In this document: positions 51,575 through 64,000 of the stretch, one piece after another
Position numbering within the stretch: position 1 is the stretch's first letter
How the letters are laid out: the number at the start of each line of letters is the position of its first letter
Assembly (NCBI GenBank): GCA_026014595.1
Contig: JAOZHY010000048.1
Coordinates: 124,001 to 188,000 of the forward strand
DNA length: 64,000 nt
From: Candidatus Bathyarchaeota archaeon
GTDB taxonomy: Archaea; Thermoproteota; Bathyarchaeia; Bathyarchaeales; Bathycorpusculaceae
Direction of reading: 5' to 3'
Notes under the pieces: model-generated
Seen by the model: the letters and a program-made list of their open reading frames with translations, nothing else
What the model was told of the DNA's origin: nothing
Databases searched by the model: none
Translations under genes and position numbers: made by a program

Positions 51575-53764
51575 ATGCGCTCAAAAATCGCAACTGACAA
51601 CCCGAACAGTTATCTGCTGCTTAACGGAGATGAAGCAGCTGCGAGGGGCGCCGTAGAAGCAGGTGTCAAGGTAGCTGCGTCTTATCCAGGGACGCCGGCA
51701 ACCGAGATTCTGGAAGCCCTTGCCGAAGCTTCAAAGACTTTCGGGATTCACGTTGAGTGGAGCATAAACGAAATCGTAGCCATGGAAGTAGCTGCAGGCG
51801 CTTCAATGGCAGGCGTAAGATCCATCGTTTCCATGAAGCATGTAGGTTTGAATGTGGCGGCTGACGCTGCCATGACGTTGGCTTACACAGGCGTCGCAGG
51901 CGGAATGGTTATCGCTGTCTGCGACGACCCCGCTTTACACAGTAGCCAGAACGAGCAGGACACGCGGTATTTCGCTTTGCACTCGAACCTGCCTCTGCTG
52001 GACGCAGCTAATCCGCAGGAGGCACTCGATATGACACGAGAAGCCTTCAAAATAAGCGAAACGCTACAGCTGCCAGTCATTGTCCGCTTAACCACCCGCG
52101 TAGCGCACAGCAAAGCAAGAGTCAAAATCAGCAGCATCAACCAAAACCTGCGAAAAGCTGAATTCGACAAAGACGCAGCACGATGGGTCATGGTGCCATC
52201 CAACGCCATAAAACGCCACCGCGTCCTGAAAAGCAAGCTGCAAGAAGCCGCGAAAATCGCCAATACCTCTAAGTTTAACGTGGTTGAGGACAACGGAAAA
52301 CAAATCGGAATCATAGGCAGCGGCGTCGGCTACTACTACGCAAGGTCGATACTAGACACCAAAAAGTTTTCATGGCTTAAACTAGGTTTCGTGCACCCCT
52401 TCCCAACCGAACTCGTCAGGCAGTTCGCGTCCAAAGTAAAGGAAATAATCATATTGGAAGAACTGCGACCTTTCATCGAGAGCAACATCCAATTTCTGCA
52501 CAGGCCATTCTTAGGGAAAGACCTGTTGGGGCTGGATGAAGTCGGCGAATTCAATCCCGATGTAGTGAGGGAAGCGTTCGCCAAACTGGGCTTGTGCGAG
52601 AAAGCGGAAAAACTAGAGGCGCTGGCGTTGCCGCCTCGTCCTCCAGTGCTTTGCCCAGGCTGCCCACACAGAGCCTTCTACTACGCTTTGAACACGGTTC
52701 GGCAGTTCGTTAACTGTGACCCCGAGAAGTGCAGCGGCTGCGACATCTGCGAGTACATCTGCTCCTTCGAGAAGGAAAAAACCTTCAACCCCATCAAGTC
52801 CCGAATCAGAGCGGTGAGGCTAGATCCACTGTCCAACATGGCTGTGACTTGCAGAACATGCAAAGACGCGCCCTGTGTGGCGGCCTGCCCCGAAGACGCT
52901 TTGGAACAGTCGGTTGAGAACGGAACAATAACGGTTGACGAAGACAAATGCAACGGGTGCGGCTGGTGCATCACTGCTTGCCAATACGGCGCGTTAACAA
53001 TTCACCCTGAAACGAAAAAAGCCATGGTGTGCGACACGTGCGAGGGCGACCCCAAATGCGTGCAGTGGTGCCCAGAACGCGCCTTAAGTTTCGGCGGAGA
53101 GACAGAGGACAAAATCGTCACGGGCGACATAGGCTGCTACACTCTTGGGTTCATGCCGCCAGTGAACACGCTTCAAACCTGCCTGTGCATGGGCGCAGGA
53201 ATCAGCCAAGCAGCGGGCATGTTTCACGCCGGAGTCAAAGACAAAATATTCGCCGTCATAGGCGACTCCACGTTCTTCCACGCGGGAATGCCTGGCTTAC
53301 TTAACATCGCGTATAACAAGGCAAACGTCTGCGTCATAATCTTGGACAACCATGTGGTGGCGATGACTGGGCACCAGCCGACGCCCGGCTCTGGAAGAAA
53401 CCTCTTAGGAGAGCAAACCAAGGAGATCAGGCTTGAGGACATAGCCAAGAGCCTCGGCATCGAGAAAGTGGAAGTCGTTGACCCTTACGACGTGAAGGCA
53501 ACCACGAAGATCCTCAGAGAAATCCTCGATTACCCTGGTCCATCAGTCATAATCGCAAGGAGACCCTGCCCCCTTTCAATTGAGAAGGGACCGGCAAGGG
53601 AGGTTCTGGAGGAATGCGACGCCTGCGGCTTATGCGTGGAAGCTTTCGGCTGCCCAGCCATCTCCATCCCATCCAAACGCGCCGAGATAGACCCGACACT
53701 TTGCTATGGCTGCGGCGTCTGCGAAACAATTTGCCCCGCTAAAGCGATAAGGAGCACTGGATAA
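51575..53764 (+). CDS. iorA: Indolepyruvate:ferredoxin oxidoreductase alpha subunit with inserted polyferredoxin module
   Basis: ASYPGTPATEILEALAEA, CPGCPHRAFYYAL, VTGDIGCYTLG; four Cys motifs between about 52715 and 53085 plus C-terminal 2[4Fe-4S]. Confidence 0.92.
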   Translation: MRSKIATDNPNSYLLLNGDEAAARGAVEAGVKVAASYPGTPATEILEALAEASKTFGIHVEWSINEIVAMEVAAGASMAGVRSIVSMKHVGLNVAADAAMTLAYTGVAGGMVIAVCDDPALHSSQNEQDTRYFALHSNLPLLDAANPQEALDMTREAFKISETLQLPVIVRLTTRVAHSKARVKISSINQNLRKAEFDKDAARWVMVPSNAIKRHRVLKSKLQEAAKIANTSKFNVVEDNGKQIGIIGSGVGYYYARSILDTKKFSWLKLGFVHPFPTELVRQFASKVKEIIILEELRPFIESNIQFLHRPFLGKDLLGLDEVGEFNPDVVREAFAKLGLCEKAEKLEALALPPRPPVLCPGCPHRAFYYALNTVRQFVNCDPEKCSGCDICEYICSFEKEKTFNPIKSRIRAVRLDPLSNMAVTCRTCKDAPCVAACPEDALEQSVENGTITVDEDKCNGCGWCITACQYGALTIHPETKKAMVCDTCEGDPKCVQWCPERALSFGGETEDKIVTGDIGCYTLGFMPPVNTLQTCLCMGAGISQAAGMFHAGVKDKIFAVIGDSTFFHAGMPGLLNIAYNKANVCVIILDNHVVAMTGHQPTPGSGRNLLGEQTKEIRLEDIAKSLGIEKVEVVDPYDVKATTKILREILDYPGPSVIIARRPCPLSIEKGPAREVLEECDACGLCVEAFGCPAISIPSKRAEIDPTLCYGCGVCETICPAKAIRSTG

Positions 53765-53766
53765 AG

Positions 53767-54354
53767 ATGGAACTGGCGGTAGTGTTCTCGGGCGTAGGCG
53801 GACAAGGCGTTGTCGTGTTAAGCGACATCTTCTGCGAAGCAGCGCTGCTTGACGGGTTCGACGTTGCCAAGGCTGAGATCCACGGGATGGCTCAGCGAGG
53901 CGCTTCAATCGTGGCGCACGCACGAATCGGAGAAAAAATAGAGTCACCGCTAATTGAGAGAGGCAAAGCGGACATCGTGTTGGGGTTTGAGGTGCTCGAA
54001 ACCGCAAGAGCCCTGCCCATGCTGAAGAAAGACGGCGCCGTGGTCGTGAACACGAAGTACATACCGCCCAACATCACGCTTAATGCCCAACCGCTGACTC
54101 AAGAGCAACTTCTGAACATGATAAAAACAAAGGCAGGAGCTGTCCACGAAGTTGACGGATTCGGCATCGCCACCAAACTTGGCAACGTACTGGTTGTAAA
54201 CACCGTCCTCCTCGGAGCTTTGTCGGCTCTTCCGGAAAACCCTGTGAAGCCCGAGTCTTACAAGCAGGCTATAGCCGCGCGGCTTAAAGAAAAGTACATC
54301 GACTTGAACCTGAAGGCGTTCCAACTGGGGCAGGAAAGCGTGACGTTAGGATAA
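53767..54354 (+). CDS. iorB: Indolepyruvate:ferredoxin oxidoreductase beta subunit
   Basis: FSGVGGQGVVVLSDIFCEAALLDGFDVAKAEIHGMAQRGASIVAHARIG. Confidence 0.92.
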   Translation: MELAVVFSGVGGQGVVVLSDIFCEAALLDGFDVAKAEIHGMAQRGASIVAHARIGEKIESPLIERGKADIVLGFEVLETARALPMLKKDGAVVVNTKYIPPNITLNAQPLTQEQLLNMIKTKAGAVHEVDGFGIATKLGNVLVVNTVLLGALSALPENPVKPESYKQAIAARLKEKYIDLNLKAFQLGQESVTLG

Positions 54355-54416
54355 TCTTATAAACAATTTCTAGACAACAGTAGAAACTACAAATTGAAAA
54401 ATAGAGGAGAATATAA

Positions 54417-55808
54417 ATGAATAAAAGAATACTCGCCGCAGTTGCAATTGTAATAATAATCGCAGCAGTATTTGTCGCAATGTGGCAACTAAACGTGTTT
54501 TCACCAGCACCTTCCGCTGAAGCACGAAACATCAAGATAGGAATCGTTGCAGGCATGCAGACCGTAGAAGGTCAAGACATTTGGCGGGCGGCTCAACTTG
54601 CGATTGACGAAATCAACGCAGCCGGAGGCGTACGAGTTGACGAATGGCACACAAACGTAAACTTTGAGTTGGTGCTGGTCGACACTGTGGATGACGCCGC
54701 TGGAAGCACCGCTAGTCCAGTTACTCGCGCAATTACGGAACAAGGAGTGGACATTCTCATCGGTGGAGCTACGACTGGAGGCACTCTTAACGGTCAAATT
54801 CCAGCAATTAACAATCGTGTTCCGTTCATAATAACGGGCGCATCGTTGAACCTTGTAACAAGAAGAGGCAGTCTCCCCTCAGATAATCCGTTGTACATCG
54901 GTGATGCTGAAGGAATGAGTTACATGTTCCACTATTGCACAACAATATCCGATTACAGCACGACAGTTGCCCACTTCTTAGCAGACAGCGTAAAGCCGAC
55001 ACTTGACTCAACCTACAGTTTTGATTCCGCCAGAAAACTCAGGCTTGCAATTCTTTACCGTGACGACGGCTACGGAAGAGGCGTTAGGGACGTGACCTCA
55101 AGCATAATAGCGAGTGACAGTTTGCCAATAGAAGTCGTTGCAAACGTCTCGTATGGAACCACCGCCACAACTTACCAGTCGCAACTCATCTCAGTCAAAG
55201 AGAGCAAACCCGACGCAGTCTACGTTGCAGGATTCACCGCAGACACCGCCGAGATTATCAGGGAAGGAATAAACGACGTTGGACTAAAATCTCTGTACAT
55301 CGCGGTTGAAATATGCGAAGACCCACAATTCTATTCGCTTCTGAGAGAAACTGGTTCTTTCCAAATCTTAGAATCAAAAATTGCCACACAATGGCAAGGA
55401 GACACATGGTATCTGGAGAAAGTCGGGAAGTACGTTGAGAACTACAAGGCGAAGTTTGACGGCAAGATTCCTGGAATGCTAGGCGCAGACACATACGACG
55501 CGATTTACATCGCCAAAAACGCTATCGAGCGGGCAGGAACCGTGAACAAAGAGGCTGTTAAAAACGCATTGGAAACAACAGACATGCCCCAGAGTTTGCT
55601 GATAATGGAAAACGAAAGAATAACCTTCAGCACCGGCACCAACTATCATGAGATTTCGCCGAAGACGTTCATTGAACAACTAATTTGGATCCCGGATGCT
55701 GGAGCGCTGAAGCCTTACGTTGTTTATCCTGATTCAATGCCTGGCATAAGCTCGTTCAAACAATTTGACTTCGCTTTACCTACAGACTATCAGCCTGGAA
55801 GCCCATAA
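54417..55808 (+). CDS. livK: ABC transporter substrate-binding protein (LivK-type)
   Basis: Signal anchor, NIKIGIVAGMQTVEGQDIWRAAQLAIDEINAAGGV, periplasmic-binding fold type I. Confidence 0.88.
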   Translation: MNKRILAAVAIVIIIAAVFVAMWQLNVFSPAPSAEARNIKIGIVAGMQTVEGQDIWRAAQLAIDEINAAGGVRVDEWHTNVNFELVLVDTVDDAAGSTASPVTRAITEQGVDILIGGATTGGTLNGQIPAINNRVPFIITGASLNLVTRRGSLPSDNPLYIGDAEGMSYMFHYCTTISDYSTTVAHFLADSVKPTLDSTYSFDSARKLRLAILYRDDGYGRGVRDVTSSIIASDSLPIEVVANVSYGTTATTYQSQLISVKESKPDAVYVAGFTADTAEIIREGINDVGLKSLYIAVEICEDPQFYSLLRETGSFQILESKIATQWQGDTWYLEKVGKYVENYKAKFDGKIPGMLGADTYDAIYIAKNAIERAGTVNKEAVKNALETTDMPQSLLIMENERITFSTGTNYHEISPKTFIEQLIWIPDAGALKPYVVYPDSMPGISSFKQFDFALPTDYQPGSP

Positions 55809-55897
55809 GCTTCTCAGCTCACCCTTTCTTTCCTTTTTCGATTTATCGCGTACATTTTAAATAGTCAACTTGAGAAAATACGTGAAGCTGACACAGC

Positions 55898-56785
55898 ATG
55901 ATAACTTCCATAACCCCCGCCGGACTTGCTGAAACTCTGCTCTGGGGAGTCGCTAACGGCTGCATTTACATTCTTTTAGCGACTGGACTGAACCTTATCT
56001 TCGGCGTCATGAAACTGGTCAATTTCGCTCATGGCCAATTGTTGATGGTTGGAGCTTTCGTAGCCTACGAAATAACCACATTTGCTGGTCTTAATCCGTA
56101 TGCGTCCATTCTTGTTTCGATGGGTTCTTTGGCTTTGATTGGAATCGTGATTGAAAAATTCGCCTTTCGCAAGGTTCGCGGAACTGAGAAATTGAACGAG
56201 ATTTTCATCAGCCTTGGCTTAATCTACGTGTTTCAAAACATCGCCACTCTCTTATGGGTGGAAAATTACAATATCCGAATCCCAAGCCCGCTTGAAGGCT
56301 TAAACCTTTCATTTGGCGCAGTGGCAATCGGCTATGATCGAATACTTGCCATGGTAAGCGTGGTTGTAATACTCATCGGGTTATTGTTGTTGACTAAGAA
56401 AACCAAGATCGGTTTGGCCATGAGGGCAACAAGCCAAAAAAGCGATGCAGCAATGCTAATGGGCATAAACATCAACAGAGTGTACCTTTACACTTTTGCG
56501 GTTGGCGCAGCGTTGGCGGGCGCCGCTGGCGCGCTTTACGGGATACTTTTCCCGTTCAATCCCGCTATAGGAGCGCTTCCGACAATCAAAGCCTTTGCAA
56601 TCATCATACTTGGCGGGCTAGGCAGCATACCAGGCGCAGTAATAGGCGGCTTACTTTACGGCATTGCTGAGAACACGGCGGTGTACATGTTAGGCGGAAT
56701 TTGGCAAGACGCTATAGCTTTCGCTTTGCTAATAGCGGTGCTGGTGATCAGACCAACAGGACTCTTCGGTGAAAAAGGTGAGTAA
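55898..56785 (+). CDS. livH: Branched-chain amino acid-type ABC permease
   Basis: ATGLNLIFGVMKLVNFAHGQLLMVGAF. Confidence 0.92.
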   Translation: MITSITPAGLAETLLWGVANGCIYILLATGLNLIFGVMKLVNFAHGQLLMVGAFVAYEITTFAGLNPYASILVSMGSLALIGIVIEKFAFRKVRGTEKLNEIFISLGLIYVFQNIATLLWVENYNIRIPSPLEGLNLSFGAVAIGYDRILAMVSVVVILIGLLLLTKKTKIGLAMRATSQKSDAAMLMGININRVYLYTFAVGAALAGAAGALYGILFPFNPAIGALPTIKAFAIIILGGLGSIPGAVIGGLLYGIAENTAVYMLGGIWQDAIAFALLIAVLVIRPTGLFGEKGE

Positions 56786-57814
56786 ATGAATTTCAAAGCA
56801 TTGTTGACTACATCTCTTAAGTCGCGAAAGTTTCAGTATGCTCTGGCATTCATAGCTTTTGTAGCGGTGCTTCCGCTTTTCGTGAGAAGCGAATACCTAA
56901 TCGGTAATGTCCTGACAGTGATGATTATCTTTGCGCTTTATGCCTCAAGCTGGAATCTTTTGGCTTATTCTGGGCAGGGCTCTCTTGGTCATGCGGCTTT
57001 CTTAGGAATAGGTGGCTTCACTTCAGCTTTGGTGGCTATTAGACTGGGGATCCCTCCAATCGTGGGATTATTCATAGGCGGCTTGTTGTCAGCAGGCATC
57101 GGTCTCTTGGTCGGTCTTGCATGCGTTAGGTTGAAAGCGTGGTTCTTGGCAATGGTCACATTTGGTTTTTCAGTAATTGCAGTCACCATAGTCAGCCAGT
57201 TTGACAGCGTTTTCGGGGGCATGATTGGTTTTGCCACGCCAACCATCGTTCCGCAAGGCGTTCCATTCTTTTATGCCACGTTGGCGATAGTGACGGTTTC
57301 CATAGGTGCCATTTTTCTGGTTATGAGATCCAAATGGGGTCTGGCCTTCAAAGCTATTCGTGAAAACGAGCTTGAAGCAAAGATGATTGGCATTAACACG
57401 GCAAAATACAGGCTACTAGCGTTCATTATCAGTACTTTCTTCGCGGGTTTGGCGGGGGGACTCTACGCTGAATCAGCACTTTTCATCCAAATCTCGATTT
57501 TTGAACCCTACTACTCTTTTCTCCCGCTCATCATGGCAGTAATCGGGGGATTAGGAACATTAGAAGGACCAATCATAGGATCAATCATCATAGTAGCAAT
57601 CGACTCCTTCGCACACCTTTCTTACGATTTTCTGCAGCCTCTGAGTCCACTTTTTCCAGGAGTGAACAACATTGGACCACCATTAAAATTCGTGGGTTTG
57701 GGGCTCTTCCTTATCGTGGTAGTCATATTCCTTCCAAAGGGAATTACATCTCTTCTCCATAGGTTGTATGATTATTTGCGTGAGGGCGAAACAAAAAAGG
57801 TGAAGGAAAAATGA
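56786..57814 (+). CDS. livM: Branched-chain amino acid-type ABC permease
   Basis: SWNLLAYSGQGSLGHAAFLGIGGFTSAL. Confidence 0.92.
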   Translation: MNFKALLTTSLKSRKFQYALAFIAFVAVLPLFVRSEYLIGNVLTVMIIFALYASSWNLLAYSGQGSLGHAAFLGIGGFTSALVAIRLGIPPIVGLFIGGLLSAGIGLLVGLACVRLKAWFLAMVTFGFSVIAVTIVSQFDSVFGGMIGFATPTIVPQGVPFFYATLAIVTVSIGAIFLVMRSKWGLAFKAIRENELEAKMIGINTAKYRLLAFIISTFFAGLAGGLYAESALFIQISIFEPYYSFLPLIMAVIGGLGTLEGPIIGSIIIVAIDSFAHLSYDFLQPLSPLFPGVNNIGPPLKFVGLGLFLIVVVIFLPKGITSLLHRLYDYLREGETKKVKEK

Positions 57815-58293: not shown

Positions 58294-59541
58294 TCAGTTG
58301 TCGTAGGTTCCTCTTTTAATTTTTTCCGCCAGCAAGTGAACAAACTCAATAGGCCAGACATCGTCAGCCACGTCATCGGTAAGTACATTGCGTTCATGAT
58401 AGTATGATATGAGATCGTTTTTCAGCAGCAATATCAACAGAAATTCGTGTCCATACGTCCGTTTGAAAAGCGCATACTTGCGAGCCTGTCTTGTAGTCAT
58501 TTCAAAATGAGGCTCCAGAATAATCCTTCTTCCTTCCACCGACTTGTCTAAAATGAAGTCTGGCGTGTACTTGTCACCAGGCAACGGGAAAGTGATTGCC
58601 TCATAGCTGTATGGAATCCTCAGGTTGGAAAGCACTTTTGCGGTTTCTTTCTCCCAGCCGCTCTTGTAACGGCTTAATTTTTGGTAGTGGGACTGCGGAT
58701 GCCCCGTTACGGTGGTCATGTAGTCAAAGAATTGCAGTGCTTCTTTCAACGTGTTTGTGTTCAAGTTTTTTTGCTTCAGCCACCTGCCTATCAAGAAAAA
58801 GGGATAGTCCACTTTTGCAGGATCTTGGGGAAACATTTTCTTAGCGAAGCTGGTAATTCTTTCGGTAGCCAGCACTACTCGGTCCTCATCTCTAAACAGA
58901 GATTGTATGGGTGAATTAATTAGACCCAAGCTGATCGCAACATGGGCGTTCTCAACGGTTAACGGGACATACAGGTCTTCTGGTGAAAAATGGTCAAGAA
59001 TTCTCAGGTCTGGGTGAGGTCTCACCATCCACCTCATGTAGGTCCAAGCTTTGTTTTTGTATGATCCCCTCATTTTCTCGATGTTTTGGCTGAGGTCCTC
59101 AACCAAATCTTTGGGTTTGCTGAATTCTTGAGAATATTTTATGAGGTTTCTTTCCGCCTTATTCTTGACAAACATGTTGACACTGGTCAAGATTTCGGGA
59201 ATCAGTTGCTTGCGGGGACCAAGAGCATCGTAAAACCCGCATTTCACAATCTTTTCTTCGAGCAGGTGAGGCTTGTATATCTCGAAAAGTCTGCTGCCAA
59301 ATGCCTTGTGAAGGCATATGAGGAGCCTTCTGGCGTTTTCAGAAAAGCCAATAAGCCCATCTTCAAGCACCGATGCCGCTAACAGCAAGTAGTGTGCCGC
59401 CACCTTTCTTTCTTCAGGATTTTTGGAGTAAGGGTTCAAGAGCAGTCTTGGACTCATTCTTCTGTCCCATTGAATGTCGACAACGTTTGAGTTAGTGTTT
59501 ACAAACTTCAAAAGCAAAGAAAATAGGTCGTCTGTTGCCAT
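58294..59541 (-). CDS. DUF2400-like (HhH-like) domain + C-terminal PD-(D/E)xK-like domain protein
   Basis: WTYMRWMVRPHPDLRILDHFSPEDLYVPLTVENAHVAISLGL; C-terminal GWEKETAKVLSNLRIPYSYEA...YTPDFILD...RIILEPHFEMT. Confidence 0.5.
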   Translation of the reverse strand: MATDDLFSLLLKFVNTNSNVVDIQWDRRMSPRLLLNPYSKNPEERKVAAHYLLLAASVLEDGLIGFSENARRLLICLHKAFGSRLFEIYKPHLLEEKIVKCGFYDALGPRKQLIPEILTSVNMFVKNKAERNLIKYSQEFSKPKDLVEDLSQNIEKMRGSYKNKAWTYMRWMVRPHPDLRILDHFSPEDLYVPLTVENAHVAISLGLINSPIQSLFRDEDRVVLATERITSFAKKMFPQDPAKVDYPFFLIGRWLKQKNLNTNTLKEALQFFDYMTTVTGHPQSHYQKLSRYKSGWEKETAKVLSNLRIPYSYEAITFPLPGDKYTPDFILDKSVEGRRIILEPHFEMTTRQARKYALFKRTYGHEFLLILLLKNDLISYYHERNVLTDDVADDVWPIEFVHLLAEKIKRGTYDN

Positions 59542-59647: not shown

Positions 59648-62380
59648 TCACTTTTTCATTTTGCTGTTAACGAATTTTCTTATCTCATCAGCAATGAAGA
59701 CTGAACTGGAAACAAGAACTATGAGCAACCAGTCCCAGGCTGAAAGCGAAGTGGTGCCTAACGCTGTTTGCAGCGGAGACAAAACAGTCGCCAGCACCTG
59801 CAATAAAACAGAGGTCGCAATGCCAGCTAGCAAGTACTTGTTGGTGGTTAAGCCAATTTTAAAAACAGATGTTGTTCTCGACCTGCAGTTCAATGCGTTG
59901 AACACTTGGAACAGCGCTATAGTGGTGAAGGCTAACGTCTGAGCTCTTTGGATACCTCCATTGCTGTATCCGCTTGTAAAAAGCCACAGGGTTCCAACAG
60001 CCATAAAGACGCCCACGTAAACGATGTTTAACATCGTGTCTCGATTGATTATCCTTTCTTTGGGCTTCCTTGGCGGCTGGTCCATGACGCCTTTCTCTTT
60101 TGGCTCCATGGCTATGAACTTGTCAAGCAAACCGTCGGTTACTAAGTTAACCCACAATATCTGAACTGGAGTAAAAATAAGAGGGACACCTGGCAAAAGA
60201 ATTAGAGCAGCGAGTATCGTGATGATTTCGCCCGTATTAGTTGAAATGAGGTATTTGACGACTTTTCTGATGTTTTCAAACACTACACGGCCTTCTTCCA
60301 CCGCGTTGACGATGCTCGCAAAATTGTCGTCAGTCAAAACCATGTCAGCTGTCTCTTTTGTGACATCGGTTCCCGTAACACCCATTGCAACACCTATTTC
60401 TGCCGCCTTCAAAGCGGGAGCATCGTTGACGCCGTCACCCGTCATAGCCACAATATGACCCTTACGTCTCAGGGACTCCACAACCCGATATTTGTGCGTC
60501 GGAGACACACGAGCAAACACTGCAACGTCGCTTATCACGGCGTCCAATTCGTCATCAGACATGCCGTCAAGGTCGGCACCTGTGAGAACCTTAGAGCCTG
60601 AGCCTAAGATGCCTATTTCTTTTGCAATAGCCTCCGCAGTAAGCTTGTGATCGCCTGTAGCCATGATCACTTTGATTCCGGCTTTTTTGCAGAGTTGAAC
60701 GGCAGGCTTGGCTTCAGGTCTAGGCGGGTCAATCATTCCTGCAAGACCAATGAAAACGAGTTTGGCGCGTCCTCGCTGGATATCACTCTTAACATCGTCA
60801 CGTTCTTTTGCGTCTATCGGCTCATAAGCGATGGCAAGTACCCTTAATGCTTCGCTAGCCATTTGCGTGCTGATCCGCAGAAGTGCCTCTTTCTTTTGCG
60901 GCGTAAGCCGTTTTGTTTTGCCGTCTTCGAGAATGTCGGAGCATCTTTCCAATATGGTTTCCGGTGCGCCTTTAACGTAGACATGAAGCTTTTCCGTGGA
61001 GACCTTGTGGAAAGTAGCCATGTACCTGTCTTTTGGGTCAAACGGAATCTCATCCACCCGAGGATATTTATCTTCTAAGTCGTCTTTCTGAAAACCTGCT
61101 TTTGCCGCCGCAACAACCAGCGCGCCTTCCGTTGGGTCACCATAAATTTCCCATTGCTGTTTCCCATCGAGCTTGTGACGCCTCAGCCGAGCGTCGTTAC
61201 AGAGAGCAGCGATTTGGAGAAGGAAGCTAAGCGAATCATCCTTTGCTGCGTCTACTGGTTTGCCATCAACTTCAAAATGTCCCTCTGGAGTGTACCCAGC
61301 GCCTGTGACCTTCACCATTTTGTTGTTTACAAATATTTTCTGGGTAGTCATCTGATTGGTCGTCAGCGTTCCAGTTTTGTCTGTGCAAATCGCTGTGGCA
61401 GAGCCTAACGTGTCAACTGCCTGCAACTTTCGGATTATGGCATTCCGTTTTGCCATTCTGTGTACGCCAATCGCCAAGGTTATTGTTATCACGACGGGCA
61501 AGCCTTCAGGGATAGCTGAGACCGCTGCAGCCAGAACGAACAAAAATGCCTCGAGGAATTCAAATCCGCGGATGAGACTGATTATTAATATTACGCCGCT
61601 TGCCAGCAGTGCAAACATTCCGAGTTTCTTGCTCAGGTCTACTGTTTGCTTCTGAATAGGAGTCGCGGCTTTTTCAGTCTCTTTTATCAGTTTAGCTATT
61701 TTGCCTATTTCGGTTCTCATTCCTGTGGAGACAACAACGGCTTTCCCTCTTCCCCGCGTAACTATCGTGCCTGAAAAAGCCATGTTTGTCCTATCAGCAA
61801 CTGGCAAGTCTTTCTCAAGGGTGACAACCGCTTTTTTAACTGGTGTTGATTCGCCCGTTAACATGGATTCGTCTATTTCAAGATTCGCAACCTCAAAAAT
61901 GCGGGCGTCAGCTGGAACTTTATCTCCAGCGTCCAAGTCTATTATGTCGCCTGGAACTATCTCTCTCGTTTTGACCCGCATTTCTACGCAACCGCCCGTT
62001 TCAGGGCAGTCTCGAATTACCTCTGCTTCTGGCGCCGCCATCGTTTTTAGGGCTTCAAGGGCTGCTTCTGCCTTGTATTCTTGGAAAAATCCAATGGCAG
62101 TGTTCAAGGCTATGACAACGGCGATGACCGTCATGTCGATGTATTTTCCGACAAATAACGAAATCAGCGCTGCGGCGACAAGGACAACGACAAGAGGACT
62201 TTTCAGTTGGCGCGCGAGAAGAGCCCATGTGAGTGTCTTCTTCTCTTCTTCCAGCTCGTTTGCGCCGTATATCTGCAGTCTCTTCTCTACTTCAGCTGTT
62301 GTCAATCCTCTTTCGCTTGTATTAAGCTGCTTGAAGACTTCTTCAACGCTTAGATTATGCCAGACCGTTTCCTGAACCAC
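59648..62380 (-). CDS. P-type (IIA/Ca2+-type) cation-transporting ATPase
   Basis: CSDKTGTLT-equivalent ICTDKTGTLTTNQMT, TGESTPV, ATGDHKLTAEAIAKEIGIL, GDGVNDAPALKAAEIGVAMG. Confidence 0.94.
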   Translation of the reverse strand: MVQETVWHNLSVEEVFKQLNTSERGLTTAEVEKRLQIYGANELEEEKKTLTWALLARQLKSPLVVVLVAAALISLFVGKYIDMTVIAVVIALNTAIGFFQEYKAEAALEALKTMAAPEAEVIRDCPETGGCVEMRVKTREIVPGDIIDLDAGDKVPADARIFEVANLEIDESMLTGESTPVKKAVVTLEKDLPVADRTNMAFSGTIVTRGRGKAVVVSTGMRTEIGKIAKLIKETEKAATPIQKQTVDLSKKLGMFALLASGVILIISLIRGFEFLEAFLFVLAAAVSAIPEGLPVVITITLAIGVHRMAKRNAIIRKLQAVDTLGSATAICTDKTGTLTTNQMTTQKIFVNNKMVKVTGAGYTPEGHFEVDGKPVDAAKDDSLSFLLQIAALCNDARLRRHKLDGKQQWEIYGDPTEGALVVAAAKAGFQKDDLEDKYPRVDEIPFDPKDRYMATFHKVSTEKLHVYVKGAPETILERCSDILEDGKTKRLTPQKKEALLRISTQMASEALRVLAIAYEPIDAKERDDVKSDIQRGRAKLVFIGLAGMIDPPRPEAKPAVQLCKKAGIKVIMATGDHKLTAEAIAKEIGILGSGSKVLTGADLDGMSDDELDAVISDVAVFARVSPTHKYRVVESLRRKGHIVAMTGDGVNDAPALKAAEIGVAMGVTGTDVTKETADMVLTDDNFASIVNAVEEGRVVFENIRKVVKYLISTNTGEIITILAALILLPGVPLIFTPVQILWVNLVTDGLLDKFIAMEPKEKGVMDQPPRKPKERIINRDTMLNIVYVGVFMAVGTLWLFTSGYSNGGIQRAQTLAFTTIALFQVFNALNCRSRTTSVFKIGLTTNKYLLAGIATSVLLQVLATVLSPLQTALGTTSLSAWDWLLIVLVSSSVFIADEIRKFVNSKMKK

Positions 62381-62625
62381 AGAGATTTCCTCAGAAAAGT
62401 GATGATTAGATTGTGATTACCTTATCTTTTCATTGGTATATAAATGATTTTATGCGTTCAATCAGCCCTAGCTTCGGCAGCGCAAACTTGGCATGCGCCC
62501 TTTGCTATTAAGAGGAAATCCCAGTCCATTTAATCAAAAATCTAAAAGCTTAAAAGCGCTTGAAATTAAATAGTTTCAACGAAGCTAATTATGTTCTGTT
62601 TAACCTTGAAAGGAGGTGATTTCTT

Positions 62626-63438
62626 TTGAATTATGAAGAAAGACTGAAAATAATTGCGAAGTCGCCTATCTCATTCAGCTATTTAAGGCGGTTCAACATC
62701 GGCGCAGGTATTCTTCATTTGTCCCAGGGAATTTTGATGCTTGTGCTGGGCACTTTAATATCTTGGGAAAGAGACATTTACACGTTTTACTTAAAATTTA
62801 ACATAGGTCCGCCGATTTCTGTTGCGCCTAACCCGCAGGTTCTATTTGCGTTAACTAATCTTGGCGTTATAGTTGCCTCGTTCCCGTTGCTGTCAGCTTT
62901 AGCTCATTTCATTATAGCTTTTCCGAAAAACCGAGAATATAATGAGAATTTGAAAAGAGGCATGAATCCTTACCGTTGGTATGAATATGCATTTTCCAGC
63001 TCGATAATGATAGTGTTAATTGCGACGTTTGTCGGCGTCTGGGATTTCTGGTCTTTAGTTATGATTTTCACTTTAAATGCGATGATGATAATGTTCGGCT
63101 ACTACATGGAAGTGGTGAATCAAAAAGCTGAGAAAACATCATGGTTGCCGTTTATTCTGGGATGTGTATCCGGCGGAGTTCCATGGGTGATTCTTTTCGC
63201 CTATTTCGCAGCAGCAATTACCTCAACGGGAACTAACCCGCCCACGTTCGTCTACCTAATATTCTTCATCTACTTCGCCGTATTCAACGTCTTCGCCTTG
63301 AATATGGTGCTGCAATACAAAGGCGTGGGCTCGTGGAAAGACTATCTTTACGGCGAACGCGTCTACATAATATTAAGCTTCGTAGCCAAAACCGCGCTGG
63401 CATGGCTAGTTTTCATCGGAATATACGCGCCCTTCTAA
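62626..63438 (+). CDS. Heliorhodopsin
   Basis: 7 TM; heliorhodopsin-type blocks RRFNIGAGILHLSQG, LLSALAHFI, NPYRWYEYAFSSSIMIVLIATFVGVWD, NMVLQYKGVGSWKDYLYGERVYIILSFVAKTALAWLVF with retinal Lys. Confidence 0.93.
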   Translation: MNYEERLKIIAKSPISFSYLRRFNIGAGILHLSQGILMLVLGTLISWERDIYTFYLKFNIGPPISVAPNPQVLFALTNLGVIVASFPLLSALAHFIIAFPKNREYNENLKRGMNPYRWYEYAFSSSIMIVLIATFVGVWDFWSLVMIFTLNAMMIMFGYYMEVVNQKAEKTSWLPFILGCVSGGVPWVILFAYFAAAITSTGTNPPTFVYLIFFIYFAVFNVFALNMVLQYKGVGSWKDYLYGERVYIILSFVAKTALAWLVFIGIYAPF

Positions 63439-63511: not shown

Positions 63512-64000
63512 CTATTTCCAGTAATCCCCAACGTTATATGAAAGCGTGTAATCCAGTTCTGTCAGCGCCTCAGGATATGGCTCCAGCACCGTCTGCGCAG
63601 ATAAGTAATCTTGCTTGAACCTTATTATCCACGCTTTCAGGATGCCCAGTAAGGCGCTTAGCGGAAGCTGACCCGCTCGGTATTTTTCCACATGCCCGAT
63701 GAAAAAGGCTTTTTCCTCTTTTGAGAGGCCGCTTGAGAAATATCCCATAATTTTCAAGAGTACATTGGCATATGAGCCCGTGCTTGGCGTTTTAGCCAGC
63801 GCCAAAGTCAAATGCCTCTTGTACTCTTCAAAAAGCTCTCTTGCTGGTTTGCCTTCCTGGTTGGCAACTATTTTCCCCATGTATCCAAGTTCTTTTTGGC
63901 TGTATGCCGTAAGTAAATACTTGCTTTCAGAGTGGAAACGGATTAAGCTGCTGATTTGTCCAGTTTTCGCGGCAGCTCTAAAACTTGCCAAGGCGAAAAG
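63512..64000 (-). CDS. DUF1722 (YbgA-like) domain protein, truncated by window end
   Basis: IRFHSESKYLLTAYSQKELGYMGKIV...GSYANVLLKIMGYFSSGLSKEEKAFFIGHVEKYRAGQLPLSALLGILKAWI...YLSAQTVLEPYPEAL; frame stays open to 64000. Confidence 0.85.
   Translation of the reverse strand, partial: LFALASFRAAAKTGQISSLIRFHSESKYLLTAYSQKELGYMGKIVANQEGKPARELFEEYKRHLTLALAKTPSTGSYANVLLKIMGYFSSGLSKEEKAFFIGHVEKYRAGQLPLSALLGILKAWIIRFKQDYLSAQTVLEPYPEALTELDYTLSYNVGDYWK

Follow-up and report, generated by a model that had tools for sequence, protein, structure and literature searches.

The window, a stretch of 64,000 nucleotides, carries a heliorhodopsin (HeR) gene with a TTG start, flanked by a divergent P-type ATPase gene and a convergent gene of the TudS-DUF1722 (RudS-like) type (Table 1). 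It belongs to a metagenome-assembled genome (MAG) of the class Bathyarchaeia, in keeping with the archaeal host named in the preliminary description. The assembly (G000) comprises 2.06 Mb in 51 contigs, is 89% complete and contains a single HeR copy on a contig of ~370 kb.

Table 1. Features at the HeR locus, in window coordinates.
Feature	Position	Strand	Basis or remark
P-type cation-transporting ATPase gene	59648..62380	-	divergent neighbour of HeR
Intergenic region, 245 bp	62381..62625		between divergent ATPase gene and HeR
Shine-Dalgarno-like AAGGAGGTGA, 6 nt ahead of TTG	62610..62619	+	inferred from sequence
Heliorhodopsin (HeR) gene, 270 aa, TTG start	62626..63438	+	PF18761, PDB relatives, AF2 model
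Codon of Glu120, helix-3 counterion (= 48C12 E107)	62983..62985	+	alignment
Codon of Lys255, Schiff-base lysine (= 48C12 K241), SxxxK motif with Ser251	63388..63390	+	alignment
TudS-DUF1722 (RudS-like) gene, C-terminal DUF1722 part	63512..64000	-	326 aa in full, runs beyond window

The protein matches the PF18761 Heliorhodopsin profile over positions 1-241 of 242 with 315 bits (E=3.5e-94), well above the curated cut-off of 26.7 bits, and its PDB sequence relatives, six distinct sequences, are all heliorhodopsins (6is6, E=8e-56; 48C12 entries, ~1e-48), establishing the family membership first proposed for it. Its closest named relatives come from Candidatus Bathyarchaeota bins, the nearest being 97% identical. 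Comparison with this relative gives a dN of 0.010-0.011 and a dS of 0.15-0.22 (dN/dS ~0.05-0.08), a strong purifying selection showing that the reading frame is not a chance one. The gene is confirmed as genuine and intact, and its kind is already known: HeRs of Bathyarchaeota subgroups 6 and 8, with transcripts from mangrove sediment, were published in 2020 (PMC7110647), and the window HeR is a known occurrence type rather than a first report. A contaminant contig, or a decaying gene useless to its host, is scarcely credible. Bins can include stray contigs, and broken HeR copies occur in two relatives (G199 and L047), but the HeR lies inside the 370-kb contig, the order ATPase, HeR, RudS-like is repeated in a separate assembly (L002/L101), and the purifying selection argues against decay.

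Copy number and integrity vary among other HeR carriers. The single-contig genome G199 contains two truncated copies, at L093:9734-10165 (residues 1-140) and L094:9887-10201 (residues 1-101), neither of which reaches helix 7 with its lysine, one of them still near UvdE and a RudS-like gene. At L047:8001-8818, in a Nitrososphaeria bin, HeR extends over two frames, reflecting a frameshift or an assembly error. Two different full-length HeR genes are present in the bathyarchaeal bin G238 (L085, L086), and bin JAOUPL also carries two (L006, L015).

The AlphaFold (AF2) model, with a mean pLDDT of 90.9, consists of seven helices, with helices 1 and 2 joined by a two-stranded β hairpin of the HeR type, in agreement with the seven-helix, 270-aa protein with HeR motifs described beforehand. 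Structure comparison places the HeR crystal structures 7u55 and 6is6 at the top and type-1 rhodopsins far lower, and the TM score of 0.85 against TaHeR (6is6) answers the call for a structural model. Alignment to 9ljj/48C12 maps the retinal-site residues from 48C12 to the window protein as K241 to K255, E107 to E120, S237 to S251, H23 to H31, H80 to H94, S76 to S90 and N101 to N114; the lysine of the helix-7 peptide previously quoted as the Schiff-base site is present and is residue 255. Across 52 aligned sequences spanning Bathyarchaeia, Asgard archaea, methanogens, Chloroflexota and others, K255, E120, S251, H94, S90, N114 and R117 are invariant, and H31 is kept in 51. The functions of these residues are established from HeR structures. 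Retinal would be bound covalently at Lys255, and the protein would run a slow photocycle. With the N-terminus placed inside, predicted inner loops hold ten Lys and Arg residues and outer loops two, a distribution that predicts an inverted topology with a cytoplasmic N-terminus.

Downstream, the RudS-like gene (L098:7512-8492, minus strand) converges on HeR at a distance of 74 bp, so the two share no operon. The full protein combines TudS (PF04463) at residues 9-149 (E=8e-36) with DUF1722 (PF08349) at residues 191-307 (E=2.3e-36). RudS enzymes remove 4-thiouridine, a near-UV target, from tRNA, and their genes are frequently found in light-responsive operons with photolyase (PMC11417400). The window protein retains the first two cluster cysteines as well as the catalytic Glu and Ser, and the third Fe-S cysteine is a serine (SPSSG), a loss for which we call the protein RudS-like only and its activity putative. 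The same cysteine is missing in 15 of 18 archaeal TudS-DUF1722 proteins compared, the window copy included (SPSSG, SPTSA etc.). SPSCG is retained in L131, L133 and L134, and L111 additionally lacks the CPE cysteine. These alignments make a two-cysteine cluster variant possible in archaea, and a RudS from which one cysteine had been removed remained active (PMC11417400).

Upstream, the intergenic region must hold the promoter or promoters of the divergent ATPase and HeR genes; a promoter and terminator scan of the HeR region with bacterial models gave nothing usable, and Rfam had no match within the window. The ATPase itself was rejected as a conserved HeR partner, its adjacency recurring solely in the 97%-identical relative and at a single distant locus. 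Farther upstream, a TPP/POR ferredoxin oxidoreductase (51575-53764) is followed by a transporter of the branched-chain amino acid ABC type, the whole segment (51575-57814) looking like anaerobic amino-acid use; a non-phototrophic, anaerobic host, as the preliminary description had suggested, fits these sampled neighbours. A 415-aa protein at 58294-59541 gives a partial DUF2400 match (E=3.6e-11).

HeR scores above the PF18761 cut-off in 34 of 251 sampled Bathyarchaeia genomes and in 24 of 108 genera. In a quick tree with SH-aLRT support only, the window protein falls within Bathyarchaeia, and sequences from methanogens, Methanosuratincola and Thorarchaeota are nested among the bathyarchaeal ones, a branching pattern that suggests transfer of HeR between anaerobic archaea. 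An IMG/VR scan gave no indication of viral origin, returning just two distant HeR contigs (47-48% identity).

A survey of 89 de-duplicated HeR loci reveals recurrent neighbours, the commonest named ones being SOUL and Pyridox_ox_2 (13 loci each), followed by peroxiredoxin-like proteins (11; assigned by eye, with a short representative giving no Pfam match), UvdE and DUF6512 (9 each), TudS-DUF1722 (7) and MsrA (6). Neighbour order and strand vary between loci, and on the HeR tree SOUL linkage requires at least nine changes, UvdE linkage at least six and RudS-like linkage at least five. UvdE ends 9 bp upstream of HeR on the same strand at L111, and HeR, Pyridox_ox_2 and UvdE are co-directional at L010. 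Among the recurrent neighbour clusters, some of which were profile-checked, neither a transducer nor a histidine kinase was conspicuous. Five Lokiarchaeal loci (L046, L048, L049, L051, L053) have a different block in common, with DUF1761 just upstream in four, DUF6512 in four, and a 530-aa protein of no assigned family just downstream on the opposite strand in all five.

Whole-genome comparison of HeR-positive (n=34) and HeR-negative (n=217) Bathyarchaeia by Fisher tests, computed without a full species tree, associates HeR with SOUL (12/34 vs 5/217, p=2e-8), photolyase (13/34 vs 6/217, p=8e-9), RudS-like (11/34 vs 9/217, p=4e-6) and UvdE (7/34 vs 5/217, p=2e-4), and leaves Cas1, a neutral accessory-gene control, evenly distributed (11/34 vs 63/217, p=0.42). 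At least one of the four occurs in 26 HeR-positive and 17 HeR-negative genomes. All four associations persist with genomes merged by genus (p 3e-6 to 9e-4), and within genus g4 SOUL is present in all four HeR-positive genomes and in one HeR-negative genome of at least 23. Within 10 kb of HeR lie SOUL in 8 of 12 genomes, intact UvdE in 5 of 6 and RudS-like in 5 of 11 (4 of 10 if a sister pair is counted once), against a chance expectation of ~1% per genome; these counts are bounded by MAG contigs and include three near-identical g38 genomes, and their p-values are optimistic because the families were chosen after viewing the neighbourhoods, the co-occurrence being measured afterwards. Photolyase was discarded as a physical neighbour: 13 HeR genomes carry it, and in none of them does it lie within 10 kb of HeR. 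TudS-DUF1722 adjoins photolyase in seven Bathyarchaeia (L126, L127, L128, L129, L130, L131, L132), resembling the bacterial RudS-photolyase pairing, and the RudS-like gene adjoins HeR in five, G227 having one copy by each.

The co-occurrence of HeR with SOUL, UvdE, RudS-like and photolyase, and the physical linkage of the first three, are new among these 251 genomes: within the open-licence full-text literature we found no publication tying HeR to SOUL proteins or RudS, and UvdE beside an archaeal HeR had been noted earlier in Thermoplasmatales (PMC8612252). Such UV-damage and oxidative-stress genes beside HeR in relatives hint at a light-damage alarm and support the light-signalling direction that the preliminary description had taken. 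The protein could instead be a generic regulatory HeR acting on transport or nitrogen metabolism, as in Actinobacteria, with light-stress genes merely marking lineages of lit habitats. HeR partners do vary by lineage (PMC11109279), many archaeal loci (e.g. Thorarchaeota, Methanosuratincola) have none of the named families nearby, and photolyase shares genomes with HeR without lying near it, the pattern expected from habitat alone; habitat nevertheless leaves the linkage of SOUL, UvdE and RudS-like within 10 kb, in differing orders, unexplained, and we regard this alternative as rather unlikely.

Retinal supply was surveyed through known enzyme families, and the absences below hold within these families and within MAG completeness. 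Among 51 Bathyarchaeia, of which 33 carry HeR, the window genome included, Blh (PF15461) was not matched once, and the same holds for 25 HeR genomes from other groups and one further bathyarchaeal record; the annotated Blh on a Pantoea plasmid was detected as a positive control. CCD/RPE65 (PF03055) was likewise without a match in 76 of 76 genomes, its positive controls being detected. Phytoene synthase (PF00494) is present in 3 of the 51 Bathyarchaeia and had no match in G000. With retinal self-sufficiency taken as a Blh or CCD oxygenase and a phytoene synthase, neither component was found in the window genome; the crtB and blh genes that the preliminary description had proposed to look for did not appear, and nor did CCD. 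Known Blh and CCD enzymes require oxygen, and their absence from anaerobes is therefore unsurprising. The missing enzymes imply that retinal is scavenged or made via a route not yet known, and for Saccharibacteria it has been suggested that other organisms provide it (PMC9296517).

Since chromophore synthesis genes were not found, the window HeR may be apo in nature. A retinal-free protein, either an apo-opsin or a receptor for another hydrophobic ligand (heme, quinone or a porphyrin breakdown product), might sense oxidative stress rather than light, and the lack of matches to Blh, CCD and phytoene synthase, together with SOUL, annotated as heme-binding, as the commonest named neighbour along with Pyridox_ox_2, would suit it. 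We consider it quite improbable, however: the retinal-site residues, including Lys and counterion, are invariant in 52 sequences, the light-specific photolyase and UvdE are among the co-occurring genes, and the low dN/dS with a kept retinal site would be unexpected in a receptor that never receives its chromophore. Purifying selection acts on a retinal-lysine site in genomes that lack any known retinal pathway.

We favour, at a probability of roughly 0.55, a light switch for photodamage defence that runs on imported retinal, for which we infer the retinal binding, photocycle, partner and retinal source. With its N-terminus in the cytoplasm, the HeR would hold all-trans retinal on Lys255 with Glu120 as counterion; light would isomerise the retinal, and the ensuing slow photocycle would alter the cytoplasmic face, which would regulate partner proteins rather than pump ions. 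In Bathyarchaeia the partners or targets would be adjacent-encoded defences against photodamage and oxidative damage, the candidate in the window being the RudS-like, putatively tRNA-4-thiouridine-directed enzyme and those in relatives being UvdE, SOUL, Pyridox_ox_2, peroxiredoxin-like and MsrA proteins. Neighbouring organisms would be the source from which the cell takes retinal, or a polyene aldehyde related to it, a step proposed on the grounds that no known retinal-forming enzyme was found in the genome.

Documented HeRs regulate neighbours in this manner: one binds and enhances photolyase (PMC9769723), one regulates an ABC transporter (PMC11109279) and one glutamine synthetase (PMC9529153). 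By analogy, the simplest reading is that the archaeal HeR may work likewise, with photodamage defence as its target and retinal imported. Light-driven ion transport for energy or pH, like that of viral V2HeR3, appears highly improbable; a giant-virus HeR is reported to move protons (PMC9448325), but a 2021 survey knew of no HeR ion pumping (PMC8612252), and energy-coupling genes do not recur among HeR neighbours. Against a photodamage role at this locus, searches of the window genome gave no UvdE, SOUL or photolyase, leaving the RudS-like gene as the only member of the set, and that gene is convergent and has its third cysteine replaced by Ser. Visible light is thought barely to reach the places where most Bathyarchaeia live (PMC7110647).

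More broadly, and tentatively, HeR in anaerobic archaea unable to make retinal might be the sensor for a photodamage island of modular make-up, in which it is joined by SOUL, UvdE, TudS-DUF1722, FMN-binding proteins and proteins for peroxide or methionine-sulfoxide repair, operating on neighbours' retinal, the chromophore signalling proximity to a lit, oxic zone. If so, retinal from oxygenic or aerobic neighbours would double as a proximity signal. The data bear on HeR function and on the retinal source of anaerobic carriers, and they supply SOUL, UvdE and RudS-like as named candidate partners of archaeal HeRs.

Among known systems, TaHeR of a Thermoplasmatales archaeon (PDB 6is6, 7u55) shares family, fold (TM 0.84-0.92), Schiff-base Lys and counterion Glu with the window HeR at 42-43% identity, the helix 1-2 loop being longer in the window protein. 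The zinc-ribbon HeRs of Thermoplasmatales are likewise archaeal and flanked by photodamage genes including UvdE (PMC8612252); they carry an N-terminal zinc ribbon and nearby carotenoid genes, whereas the window protein lacks such an extension and its genome has no phytoene synthase match. The HeRs of Bathyarchaeota subgroups 6 and 8 belong to the same host class and protein family; PMC7110647 describes crtY and retinol dehydrogenases in some of its bins and proposes exogenous retinal analogues, and is not known to report either the absence of Blh, CCD and phytoene synthase or linkage to SOUL, UvdE or RudS. RudS, the tRNA 4-thiouridine desulfidase, has the domain fusion and the catalytic Glu and Ser in common with the window neighbour and also sits in light-responsive loci, in a paper that makes no mention of rhodopsins (PMC11417400). 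In Trichococcus, TfHeR is similarly tied to a nearby-encoded light-damage repair enzyme, a class II photolyase whose binding was measured (PMC9769723), whereas the candidate partner in the window is encoded by a convergent RudS-like gene; in relatives of the window HeR, UvdE or SOUL take the neighbour place.
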